Positions 17,102 through 20,009 of a stretch of 64,000 nt of DNA are shown piece after piece. Made by a program: the position numbers and the translations under genes. Below the pieces are notes generated by a model. It was given only the letters and a program-made list of their open reading frames with translations. It searched no databases and had not been told where the DNA came from. The DNA is from Candidatus Saccharibacteria bacterium 49-20 (GTDB lineage Bacteria > Patescibacteriota > Saccharimonadia > Saccharimonadales > Saccharimonadaceae), in the NCBI GenBank assembly GCA_001897295.1, contig MKSN01000001.1, positions 124,001-188,000 on the forward strand, read 5' to 3'. The stretch's first letter is position 1. Each line of letters opens with the position of its first letter.

Positions 17102-17129
17102 CTCTCTCTCTCTCTCTCTCTCTCTCTCT
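17102..17129 (+). repeat. (CT)14 dinucleotide tract
   Basis: 28 uninterrupted bp of CT directly upstream of DGR target gene. Confidence 0.99.
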
Positions 17130-17166
17130 AGCCAGAATAAGAAATCTACCGCGAGGTTCTAACCAG

Positions 17167-18174
17167 ATGAATCGTCGCGGTTTTACTATCGTCGAACTCC
17201 TGATCGTCATCGTGGTGATTGGTATTCTTGCGGCGATTACCATCGTGGCGTACACCGGCATCACTCAGAACGCCAACAAGGCTGCCCTGACCGCAGATAT
17301 CAAGCAACTCCAAACAAAGGCTGCTGTCTACCGCGCCCAGAACGGCATCGACGATTGTCCCGCTGGTTACTCATTTGTCTACGGCAATTCCACACTCGGT
17401 ACCTCGCCGTTCTGTGTCATGAAGTACGAAGCCAAGAACGTCAGTGGCGTGGCTACCTCACAGGCTTCCGGTGCGCCGTGGGTCTCGATCACACAAACGG
17501 ATGCGATTACGCAGTCTACCAATGCTGGCGGGCACCTGCTGACCGAGGCGGAATGGATGACGATTGCGGCTGATGTACTCTCGATGAAACAGAACTGGTC
17601 TGGTGGCAGCGTGAACTCCGGAATCATCTATCAGGGTCACGTAAACAACAACCCAGGAAGCGCGTTGGCGGCTTCGGACGATGATACCGACAACCTGAAT
17701 GGCATGACCGGTGGTATCGGAACCAACTCCGGCAATAACAGCTCTCGCGTACTGTACCTTTCATCTGGCGACGCAATTTGGGACTTCTCTGGTAATGTGT
17801 GGGAATGGACACAGCAAGCCATTGGTACACCAACACTCACTATGAGCAACGTCGGTGTCTCTGGCGACTCAGCATTCAACTGGCGCGACTACACGCTTGG
17901 TTCACTGAGTCTCGGCAACTTAGCAAACGTCAGTAAGCCAGCAACCTTAAACGGTTGGACAAACCCGGTCAATAACGTCAGTCTTTCTGGTATTACTTGG
18001 GGAGCTGGTAAGGGTGTTGGGCAGATTTACGCGAACTATGCGGACTCAGCTTCTCGCGCGTTCCTCCGCGGCGGCTATTGGTACTATGGCTCCAGTGCCG
18101 GGGTCTTGACGCTCCATTTGAACTATTCTGCGTCGGACTCGAACGCGGGCATCGGTTTCCGGGTTGCCCGGTGA
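17167..18174 (+). CDS. DGR target protein: prepilin-like N-terminus + CLec/FGE-like C-terminal variable domain
   Basis: MNRRGFTIVELLIVIVVIGILAAITIVAYTGI; FGE-like (LLTEAEWMTIA; GDAIWDFSGNVWEWTQ; SRAFLRGGYWYYGSSAGVLTLHLNYSASDSNAGIGFRVAR). GAGG RBS before ATG 17167; possible GTG start 17062. Confidence 0.88.
   Translation: MNRRGFTIVELLIVIVVIGILAAITIVAYTGITQNANKAALTADIKQLQTKAAVYRAQNGIDDCPAGYSFVYGNSTLGTSPFCVMKYEAKNVSGVATSQASGAPWVSITQTDAITQSTNAGGHLLTEAEWMTIAADVLSMKQNWSGGSVNSGIIYQGHVNNNPGSALAASDDDTDNLNGMTGGIGTNSGNNSSRVLYLSSGDAIWDFSGNVWEWTQQAIGTPTLTMSNVGVSGDSAFNWRDYTLGSLSLGNLANVSKPATLNGWTNPVNNVSLSGITWGAGKGVGQIYANYADSASRAFLRGGYWYYGSSAGVLTLHLNYSASDSNAGIGFRVAR
18048..18172 (+). repeat. DGR variable repeat (VR)
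   Basis: 125 bp; 113 identical to TR 19825-19949, all 12 differences at TR adenines. Confidence 0.97.
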
Positions 18175-18256
18175 TACTCCCGACCCTAGCTTTTGTCTCT
18201 TGAACTCTTAGTTCTTACAACATTAAATCTTTAATCTTTTCTTCCTCTATGCACCC

Positions 18257-18643
18257 ATGAAACCGGATTTTATCATCTACACCCGTATGCTCGAAGTGCA
18301 GCAATGGATCTTCGATAAGGTTAATACCTTTCCGAAGAAACAACGCTTCGTGCTGGGACAACAGATTGAAACCAGCGCCCTCGCGTGTCTGCGGCTCATC
18401 ATTCAAGCCAACAATCTGAAAAATCCAGAGAAGACACTCTTGAAGCTGGATGACCTGAACACGGAGTTGGAAGTACTTCGAGGACTACTTCGGATTGGGT
18501 TCGAGATGAAGTTCCTTAGTGCCAAAAGCCTCGGACACATCACCAAGCGGATCGATGAAGTAGGGAAGATGACCGGTGGGTGGATCAAGACAGCCCGCGA
18601 CAAACGGCTACCGACTATCCGAGCCGTCGAAGTCGAGCAGTGA
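18257..18643 (+). CDS. avd: DGR accessory variability determinant (Avd-like, four-helix bundle)
   Basis: 128 aa helical; between VR and RT; TRMLEVQQWIFDKVNTFPKKQRFVLGQQIE... Confidence 0.85.
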   Translation: MKPDFIIYTRMLEVQQWIFDKVNTFPKKQRFVLGQQIETSALACLRLIIQANNLKNPEKTLLKLDDLNTELEVLRGLLRIGFEMKFLSAKSLGHITKRIDEVGKMTGGWIKTARDKRLPTIRAVEVEQ

Positions 18644-19771
18644 CAATTGGGTCGGCTTTCGGAGCCTCCGTAAATTCTGGCGGTGCTTCTTCCTGACAAA
18701 TGCAATGAACTTGTGGGAATCCAGCTCCTCGGTGATTTGCTTAATGAGCGGTTCACCACTCCCATGCCTCACATGAGCCGACCACGCGTTCACCATATCA
18801 TCCAGCCGTTGTTCACTGACCGCGCCTTTATGGTAGGCTTTGAGGTTGCGGTGGAACTTCCGTCGGAATCTTCGGAGCGACGATGCCCGTACCCGTTTAC
18901 CATACGGATACATGATATAACCGACAAAGTCGACTCCCAGACGACTTGGATAGATGCGGACTTTTCTCGGATTCACCGTCAAGTACAGTTCATCGTATAG
19001 AAACGCCGTGATCTTTCGTTGCCACTCTTGCAAAACGGCTTTGTCTTGATGAAAGAGCAGGATGTCGTCCATGTAGCGGATGTAGAACTTGGCGTGAAGC
19101 GACTGCTTCGCAAACATATCCGCCTCATGAAGATAAATATTGGCAAAGAGCTGGGAGGTCAGGTTCCCGATAGGAATACCGCGCCGACCTTTTGTATGGT
19201 AGTTGGAGTCAGTTGGGAATAGGTAGTCGTGTTCATCGCCGCTGTCACTACTGTCAATAATGACATCCAAAAGTCGGAGCAACCTCGGATCATCTATCTT
19301 GCGACGCAACAGCTCACGGAGTTTAGCGTGATTCACCGACGGGTAGTATTTGGAGATATCAATTTTACAGACGTACAAGTTCGGTTCGCTTCTGAGGAAA
19401 TGTTGCACCCTCGCCATTGCTCGGTGGATTCCCTTATCTGGCCGACATGCATAAGAATCACGAATAAAGGAACGTTCGTAGAATGGGCTAAGAATGCCGT
19501 GCATGGCGTGGTGAACAATCCGGTCCCGAAAGGCCGGAGCCTCAATCATCCGGACTTTGGGTTCACGGATGATCCGGCGACGATAATCCATCGGGCGGTA
19601 CGAGCCGGACACCAATTCTCTCTGGATTTGAAGCAGATCACTCATGAAGCGGAAGTTGGTGGCCGTTGCCGAGTGGCTGTTGCGCTTTCCTATCAACGCC
19701 TTTTTATGGGCTTTTGCTAAGGCCTCTAGTGAAGCAATCTTAGCAAAAGCGGTGGCATCTAACATCGTCAT
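18608..19771 (-). CDS. DGR reverse transcriptase
   Basis: RT motifs KIDISKYYPSV, GIPIGNLTSQLFANIYL, FYIRYMDDILLF; adjacent TR/VR pair. Confidence 0.97.
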   Translation of the reverse strand: MTMLDATAFAKIASLEALAKAHKKALIGKRNSHSATATNFRFMSDLLQIQRELVSGSYRPMDYRRRIIREPKVRMIEAPAFRDRIVHHAMHGILSPFYERSFIRDSYACRPDKGIHRAMARVQHFLRSEPNLYVCKIDISKYYPSVNHAKLRELLRRKIDDPRLLRLLDVIIDSSDSGDEHDYLFPTDSNYHTKGRRGIPIGNLTSQLFANIYLHEADMFAKQSLHAKFYIRYMDDILLFHQDKAVLQEWQRKITAFLYDELYLTVNPRKVRIYPSRLGVDFVGYIMYPYGKRVRASSLRRFRRKFHRNLKAYHKGAVSEQRLDDMVNAWSAHVRHGSGEPLIKQITEELDSHKFIAFVRKKHRQNLRRLRKPTQLSLLDFDGSDSR

Positions 19772-19824
19772 CTATTCCTAGTATAAGCGTAAAGCGATAT
19801 ACTGGTTACGGTTATCGGGTCTGA

Positions 19825-19949
19825 AGCTTCTCGCGCGTTCATCCGCGGCGGCAATTGGAACAATGGCTCCAATGCCGGGGTCTTGACGCTCAATTTGAAC
19901 AATTCTGCGTCGAACTCGAACACGAACATCGGTTTCCGAGTTGCCCGGT
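19825..19949 (+). repeat. DGR template repeat (TR), on + strand
   Basis: Encodes ...RGGNWNNGSNAGVLTLNLNNSASNSNTNIGFRVAR with AAY-rich codons; A-specific mismatches to VR. Confidence 0.97.
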
Positions 19950-19958
19950 ATACTAGTT

Positions 19959-20009
19959 CGACAGATCGACACCTGTCGGGGCGTGATATGCAAGGTCTAC
20001 GGATCTTGC
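19959..20009 (+). ncRNA. Putative structured 3' part of TR RNA (two hairpins)
   Basis: CGACAG-N8-CTGTCG (19959-19978) and GCAAGGTC-N4-GATCTTGC (19990-20009) directly after TR. Confidence 0.45.

Follow-up and report, generated by a model that had tools for sequence, protein, structure and literature searches.

The 64,000-nucleotide stretch of Candidatus Saccharibacteria bacterium 49-20 analysed here (contig MKSN01000001.1, positions 124,001 to 188,000; hereafter the window) contains a diversity-generating retroelement (DGR) with its reverse transcriptase (RT), template repeat (TR), variable repeat (VR), accessory protein Avd and target gene. With a probability of about 0.93, the locus is a genuine, complete and recently active DGR that is carried as cargo by an integrative element of Saccharibacteria encoding a type IV secretion system (T4SS). 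As a DGR it belongs to a known kind, and what is new is that a recently transferred element with T4SS genes, an inverted layout accompanied by a conserved RNA, a target of pilin type and a CT tract occur together. The components of the DGR are as follows.

17167 to 18174, plus strand: DGR target of 335 residues, a type IV prepilin N-terminus with an FGE-sulfatase/C-type-lectin-like C-terminal domain (PF07963, 2.2e-7; PF03781, 4.7e-8)
18048 to 18172, plus strand: VR (repeat alignment; comparison with the second element copy)
18257 to 18643, plus strand: Avd, accessory variability determinant (NF033474, 88.1 bits, cut-off 80; PF22296, the Pfam bAvd family, 3.8e-24; phrog_3206)
18608 to 19771, minus strand, opposite to TR, VR and Avd: DGR RT (motifs, PDB profile match and tree)
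19825 to 19949, plus strand: TR (repeat alignment)

The gapless alignment of TR and VR is exactly 125 bp long, and the similarity stops sharply at either end. All 12 mismatches lie at TR adenines (19841, 19853, 19859, 19862, 19872, 19892, 19901, 19913, 19922, 19925, 19926 and 19939). The TR has 26 adenines in its 125 bases, and the hypergeometric probability that all 12 mismatches fall on them by chance is 5.5e-10. The pair is unique in the genome, a scan of the 904,897-bp single contig having given no third copy. The VR ends at the target stop codon, and the TR translated in the target frame reads ASRAFIRGGNWNNGSNAGVLTLNLNNSASNSNTNIGFRVAR, indicating that the templated adenines lie mostly within AAY codons. 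Realignment recovered the repeat coordinates, the mismatch positions and the AAY-rich codons given in a preliminary description of this locus. The divergence had been called adenine-only there, which is exact for the window copy (12/12) and not absolute in view of a second copy of the element, in which 10 of the 11 TR–VR differences are at A and one is a T to G change. In the clade of inverted DGRs to which this locus belongs, five independent TR/VR pairs have 76 of 76 mismatches at A (12, 9, 18, 17 and 20).

The RT contains both motifs named in the preliminary description, GIPIGNLTSQ, which is of the DGR type [IL]GxxxSQ, and YMDD. Its top PDB relative is 8ub7, the Bordetella DGR RT, with an E-value of 2.6e-46, whereas group II RTs reach only 3e-23, and it falls short of the threshold of the group II maturase model. 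Phage DGR RTs and group II RTs were combined with nine RTs of inverted layout in a tree, which is unrooted, has many weak deep branches and leaves out retron RTs; in it these nine form one fully supported clade, and the phage RTs included share a strand with Avd. On all these grounds the RT groups with DGR RTs and not with group II introns. An HMM search passed the Avd models of both NCBIfam (NF033474) and Pfam, and the RT, Avd and target reading frames are intact. Target, Avd, RT and TR are thus all present, and the earlier DGR interpretation of a complete element holds; it had not recognised that the RT is inverted, that a structured RNA and a CT tract are present, that the target is of pilin type or that the cassette is carried by a mobile element.

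A second copy of the element is found in another, metagenome-derived Saccharibacteria genome (MKSO01000001.1, hereafter G013; the 905-kb window genome is G000). The RT of G013 is 100% identical to that of the window, and the match spans window positions 9699–29916, beyond which the flanks are unrelated. The integration sites differ, tRNA-Leu(GAG) in the window and tRNA-Leu(CAG) in G013, and the host chromosomes are well apart and belong to different species, a TypA-like gene (41291–43198) having 82% DNA identity between the two. The elements are 20,218 bp and 20,214 bp long, respectively, and differ solely by 13 substitutions, all within the VR, and by two CT units fewer in G013; the remaining ~20 kb is identical, the TR included. 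The probability that all 13 substitutions fall by chance within 125 of ~20,220 bp is ~2e-29. Of these substitutions, 12 fall on TR adenines, in agreement with the expectation of the preliminary description that VR variation follows A-templated sites. Together the 13 result in ten amino-acid changes, L300R, Y304P, Y306N, S310N, T315A, H317Y, N319S, Y320N, D324Y and G328H. Since the VR alone has gained substitutions in ~20 kb, the DGR has been active since the copies diverged. Barring a shared assembly error, the two-copy comparison shows recent DGR activity, and this natural comparison supports mutagenic retrohoming in vivo. The reading of the DGR from a single locus is superseded by this comparison of whole elements. 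Viral contigs, plasmids and a VR/TR pattern search gave no other copies.

A search for RT homologues in 394 genomes of the family gave further RTs with 55–76% identity in G011, G012, G139, G192, G215 (two), G226 and G255. Where the contig covers the parts, the target and Avd of these loci are on one strand and the RT is on the other. The TR lies just before the RT start and is oriented away from the RT, and G192 has lost the TR at this place. Several of the more distant RTs of the group have TR and RT on the same strand. Two further features flank the TR.

19798 to 19803, plus strand: TATACT box, 27 nt upstream of the TR, candidate −10 element of a TR-RNA promoter
19950 to 20137, plus strand: Sp-like structured RNA with a terminator-like hairpin at its end (covariance-model match 19979–20127)

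Of 8 loci, 7 have a TATAMT box in a comparable position before the TR; a scan for sigma-70 and terminator consensus sequences did no better than on shuffled sequences. The ~190 nt 3' of the TR fold strongly (z = −4.73). Across eight loci, 31 base pairs of the Sp-like RNA are kept in 96.3% of the cells and 19 pairs have changes on both sides, a covariation unmatched by shuffles (0/500) or by slid versions of the alignment. The structure was derived from the same alignment as was tested, and the slide control answers this circularity only in part. The covariance model scores the inverted loci at 102–125 bits and gives no hit at any same-strand DGR, phage or group II locus, with one weak 23-bit match elsewhere in L057. 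Among 393 genomes of the order, eight genomes score. The TR-Sp RNA has no match in Rfam. The inverted layout and the predicted covarying RNA are common to a monophyletic clade of Saccharibacteria DGRs. The spacer RNA of the Bordetella DGR recruits RT-Avd (PMC12875486), and by analogy the Sp-like RNA, as its positional counterpart, may bind RT-Avd. The inverted arrangement is itself not new, since it was described in 2012 in three gammaproteobacteria (PMC3521204). As a separate observation, locus L110 (G202) has an Sp-like RNA directly behind an A-depleted sequence that is VR-like rather than TR-like.

The other difference between the two copies is in the repeat that precedes the target.

17102 to 17129, plus strand: (CT)14 microsatellite before the target, (CT)12 in the G013 copy

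The feature of the preliminary description starts at the first base of this tract (17102). The target itself starts at ATG 17167, and a longer in-frame reading frame opens at GTG 17062, upstream of the tract. At the same place the tract has 13 units in G012, 10 in G192 and 15 in G226, and G139, G011 and G215 are without such a tract. The (CT)n tract probably adds on/off or level switching by slippage, and phase variation of the target, as a layer above hypermutation, is plausible from the sequence comparison. A serious alternative, to which we give a little less than an even chance, is that the tract is no switch and either serves as a constitutive pyrimidine-rich 5' leader or is simply a neutral microsatellite. 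In both the window and G013 an in-frame ATG follows the tract, and the window ATG at 17167 has a GAGG motif, so that translation need not cross the tract; CT tracts elsewhere in the family are also unlinked to pilins. Against neutrality, the tract is the sole (CT)≥9 tract of the genome in G000, G013, G012 and G192 and always stands before the DGR target; two tracts in G255 and two of the three tracts in G226 likewise precede prepilin-FGE genes, extra ones included; and the unit number, 14 versus 12, differs between otherwise identical copies. In addition, once past the tract of the cassette's target, neither G192 nor G226 has an ATG, GTG or TTG in frame with the prepilin, and therefore translation through the tract is favoured there.

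The Neisseria opa CTCTT repeat is a simple-sequence-repeat contingency locus. The window tract is alike in being a short-unit repeat of varying length (14 versus 12) near the start of a surface-protein gene, and differs in being a candidate switch that is combined with DGR hypermutation. A full-text literature search gave no paper linking DGRs with repeat-mediated phase variation, general reviews aside, which is weak evidence of novelty. Two broader proposals were set aside. A link between CT tracts and pilins across the whole family was rejected, the association being seen only in the inverted-DGR clade and its relative G008. A conserved ATG upstream of the tract was not adopted as a proven start: all genes are out of frame with it at the assembled tract lengths, and in the window it meets a stop at codon 3. 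More prepilin genes with a (CT)n leader occur at L070 (G226), L072 and L073 (G255) and L088 (G008), three of them target-like prepilin-FGE genes, with no RT in the stretch examined; these are possibly orphan or former DGR targets.

The N-terminus of the target has the prepilin motif GFTIVELL (PF07963) and matches pilins in PDB. A profile of the clade's C-terminal domains has as its best solved relative the Thermus aquaticus DGR variable protein 5vf4 (E 5e-7; PMC6328139). Together with the FGE-sulfatase domain, this match agrees with the C-type-lectin/FGE-like target of the preliminary description. By these profiles the target is a predicted prepilin-FGE/C-type-lectin-like protein. It may be displayed on the surface as part of a pilus, where it would bind a host or mating partner, and a hypervariable C-type-lectin-like domain on a prepilin would be suited to recognising hosts or mating partners of many kinds. 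The type IV pilus of TM7x, a cultured Saccharibacterium, contributes to host binding, and its minor pilin PilX2 has an extra C-terminal domain (PMC12206443). The FGE-sulfatase family match would also fit a soluble or enzymatic FGE-like protein that is no displayed adhesin. We regard such a protein as improbable, because the target carries the prepilin motif and has pilin matches, its C-terminal domain is closest to a DGR variable protein among solved structures, and the VR lies at its very C-terminus.

The boundaries and genes of the element are as follows.

9699 to 29916: integrative element of 20,218 bp carrying the DGR, defined by identity with the G013 copy and ending exactly at the 3' end of the tRNA-Leu gene
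9612 to 9698, plus strand: tRNA-Leu (GAG), integration site, with the left junction at its 3' end and the core GCGCACCA at 9691–9698
29909 to 29916: right junction core GCGCACCA (comparison with the G013 copy)
9652 to 11385, minus strand: large serine recombinase (PF00239, 2.5e-9)
12192 to 13010, plus strand: Replication-relaxation family protein, possibly a relaxase or replication protein (PF13814, 5.8e-8)
20140 to 20403, minus strand: excisionase-like helix-turn-helix protein (TIGR01764, 1.6e-6, 28.4 bits, just below the cut-off of 28.8)
21354 to 29124, plus strand: T4SS genes for VirB2-like pilins, a VirB6-like protein, PrgI, VirB4, a CHAP hydrolase and a VirD4-like coupling ATPase (domain searches)

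The core CGCACCA is common to the junctions. VirB4 (24351–26084) passes the conjugal-transfer equivalog NF045971 with 354 bits (cut-off 325). A site-specific recombinase, precise integration, VirB4, VirD4 and mating-pair genes, which characterise an integrative and conjugative element, are present, and the Replic_Relax match (PF13814, 5.8e-8) is the one piece of relaxase evidence. The element appears to move between species by site-specific integration at tRNA-Leu genes, and conjugation is its likely transfer route. If the identical 20-kb block had arisen artificially, by assembly or binning, from a single element population, interspecies transfer would not be demonstrated. G013 is metagenome-derived, and apart from the VR and the CT tract the block shows 100% identity. 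On the other side, the junctions in the GAG and CAG tRNA-Leu genes are clean and distinct, VR and CT length both differ between the copies, and a tandem related remnant lies directly to the right of the G000 copy and none after the G013 copy, so that an artefact is very improbable. Even then, the VR-only variation would still indicate DGR activity. That the DGR is old and inactive, its TR–VR differences dating from past activity in copies long separated, is scarcely credible: related loci have decayed (the G139 RT has an internal TAA, and G192 has no TR beside its RT), yet RT, Avd and target are intact here, and the reading is hard to hold because the VR gained 13 substitutions while ~20 kb elsewhere gained none.

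Several points weigh against a recently active DGR with a lectin-like target. Both copies come from assembled genomes, one of them a metagenome bin, and the evidence for the locus is sequence and not expression. One of the 13 VR differences, the T to G change, is at a TR T; this sole exception may be an ordinary RT error. The AlphaFold model of the target is unusable (pLDDT 33), and for this reason the C-type-lectin fold rests on sequence profiles. Finally, no hairpin or cruciform of the BPP-1 type (stem of at least 6 bp, loop of 3–7 nt) lies downstream of the VR in the window copy. G012 (9 bp, GACA loop), G215 and G192 do have a post-VR hairpin. In BPP-1 it is important yet not strictly required (PMC12875486), and it is therefore a helper and not a defining feature of a DGR.

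Several observations concern the surroundings and cargo of the element. The remnant to its right is a tandem related, decayed element whose left end recurs at 29938–30136 with 72% identity, at a spacing of exactly 20,218 bp. Remnants of a related serine recombinase or element, among them fragments ~10 kb further on, also lie at 29771–30235 and 39771–40320 (direct repeats D1, D2 and D6). A 55-bp stretch at 14072–14126 is repeated at 30720–30774 with 93% identity, each just 5' of a defence-like or cargo gene, and is a candidate common promoter, regulator site or oriT. The adjacent proteins encoded at 14190–15725 and 15686–16888 have no match in Pfam, NCBIfam, PHROG or PADLOC. They contain R-x(3-4)-H-G-like motifs (LRNSIHG, LRSAIIHG) reminiscent of HEPN domains and are possible defence cargo of the element. 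A VirB4 search found the element's VirB4 alone in G013, and a second VirB4, 38–40% identical, in G000, G011 and G012.

The TR/VR relation, the adenine bias, the activity since divergence, the RNA structure, the inverted clade-wide layout and the mobility can be read from the compared sequences. They are best explained by the following process. A promoter beside the TR would give rise to a TR RNA whose 3' part (19950–20137) folds into the conserved structure and, as the spacer RNA of Bordetella does, would bring in RT-Avd. Expressed from the other strand, the RT would copy the TR, placing random bases wherever the template has A, and the resulting cDNA would take the place of the VR in the 3'-terminal part of the prepilin-FGE gene. 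The residues changed in this way would be those templated by adenines, mainly Asn codons, and would lie on the C-terminal domain of a surface protein resembling a pilin. Slippage of the (CT)n tract before the target would probably add on/off or level switching, and the element would transfer between species via site-specific integration at tRNA-Leu genes.

The DGR of Bordetella phage BPP-1 (mtd-avd-TR-brt) is alike in RT homology (8ub7), Avd, adenine mutagenesis, a structured RNA after the TR and a C-type-lectin-type target whose 3' end holds the VR. The window DGR differs from it in that the RT is inverted, the TR is not preceded by avd, the BPP-1-type post-VR hairpin was not found in the copy, the target is a prepilin preceded by a CT tract, and the carrier is a T4SS integrative element and not a phage. 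The inverted DGRs of DiGReF Group 4 (Shewanella, Vibrio and Photobacterium; PMC3521204) likewise have the RT opposite to TR, VR and target. They are likened here by layout and not by RT descent, whereas the window DGR belongs to a separate Saccharibacteria clade of at least nine loci with a common covarying Sp RNA. The Patescibacteria-restricted clade 2 of CPR DGRs (PMC8144416) is alike as a cell-encoded Patescibacteria DGR, the window DGR being compared with it by description and not placed in it. Clade 2 targets were reported to be without recognisable transmembrane or other conserved domains, this lack being left open there (PMC8144416), whereas the window target combines a prepilin motif with an FGE domain. 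The T4SS of Patescibacteria share VirB2-, VirB4-, VirB6- and VirD4-type components with the window; a survey found mostly chromosomal, relaxase-less systems and inferred non-conjugative roles (PMC12102498), whereas the T4SS genes of the window lie in a recently moved integrative element with a Replic_Relax protein.

Elsewhere in the window, adjacent GajA and GajB homologues (49222–51833; PADLOC 1.8e-100 and 6.7e-46) form a Gabija-type defence pair in a Saccharibacteria genome. An AAA_13-family ATPase (30871–33012) matches the PADLOC candidate PDC-S06 (2.5e-39), and neighbouring proteins at 36983–39476 have a common repeated HHxGA-like segment (repeat D4) beside a heavy-metal P-type ATPase.

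Saccharibacteria are ultrasmall, and their cultured relatives live on other bacteria. It is a tentative and rather doubtful proposal that a conjugative-type element of such epibiotic bacteria has its own hypermutating, phase-variable pilus adhesin, with which the element or its carrier re-targets the host or mating partner at each move. If true, targeted hypermutation and repeat slippage would be two programmed layers of variation on one gene, comparable to the re-targeting of the Bordetella phage tail fibre. As a rule, DGR activity in Patescibacteria is deduced solely from the differences between TR and VR, and the two-copy record is about as clear as sequence permits. The element is also an example of recently transferred T4SS genes in bacteria whose T4SS have mostly been judged non-conjugative (PMC12102498), and the clade provides a defined RNA for studying how inverted DGRs function. 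With hypermutation in Patescibacteria tied to a pilin-like protein, and with the TM7x pilus as a precedent (PMC12206443), a change or widening of epibiont host range becomes directly testable.

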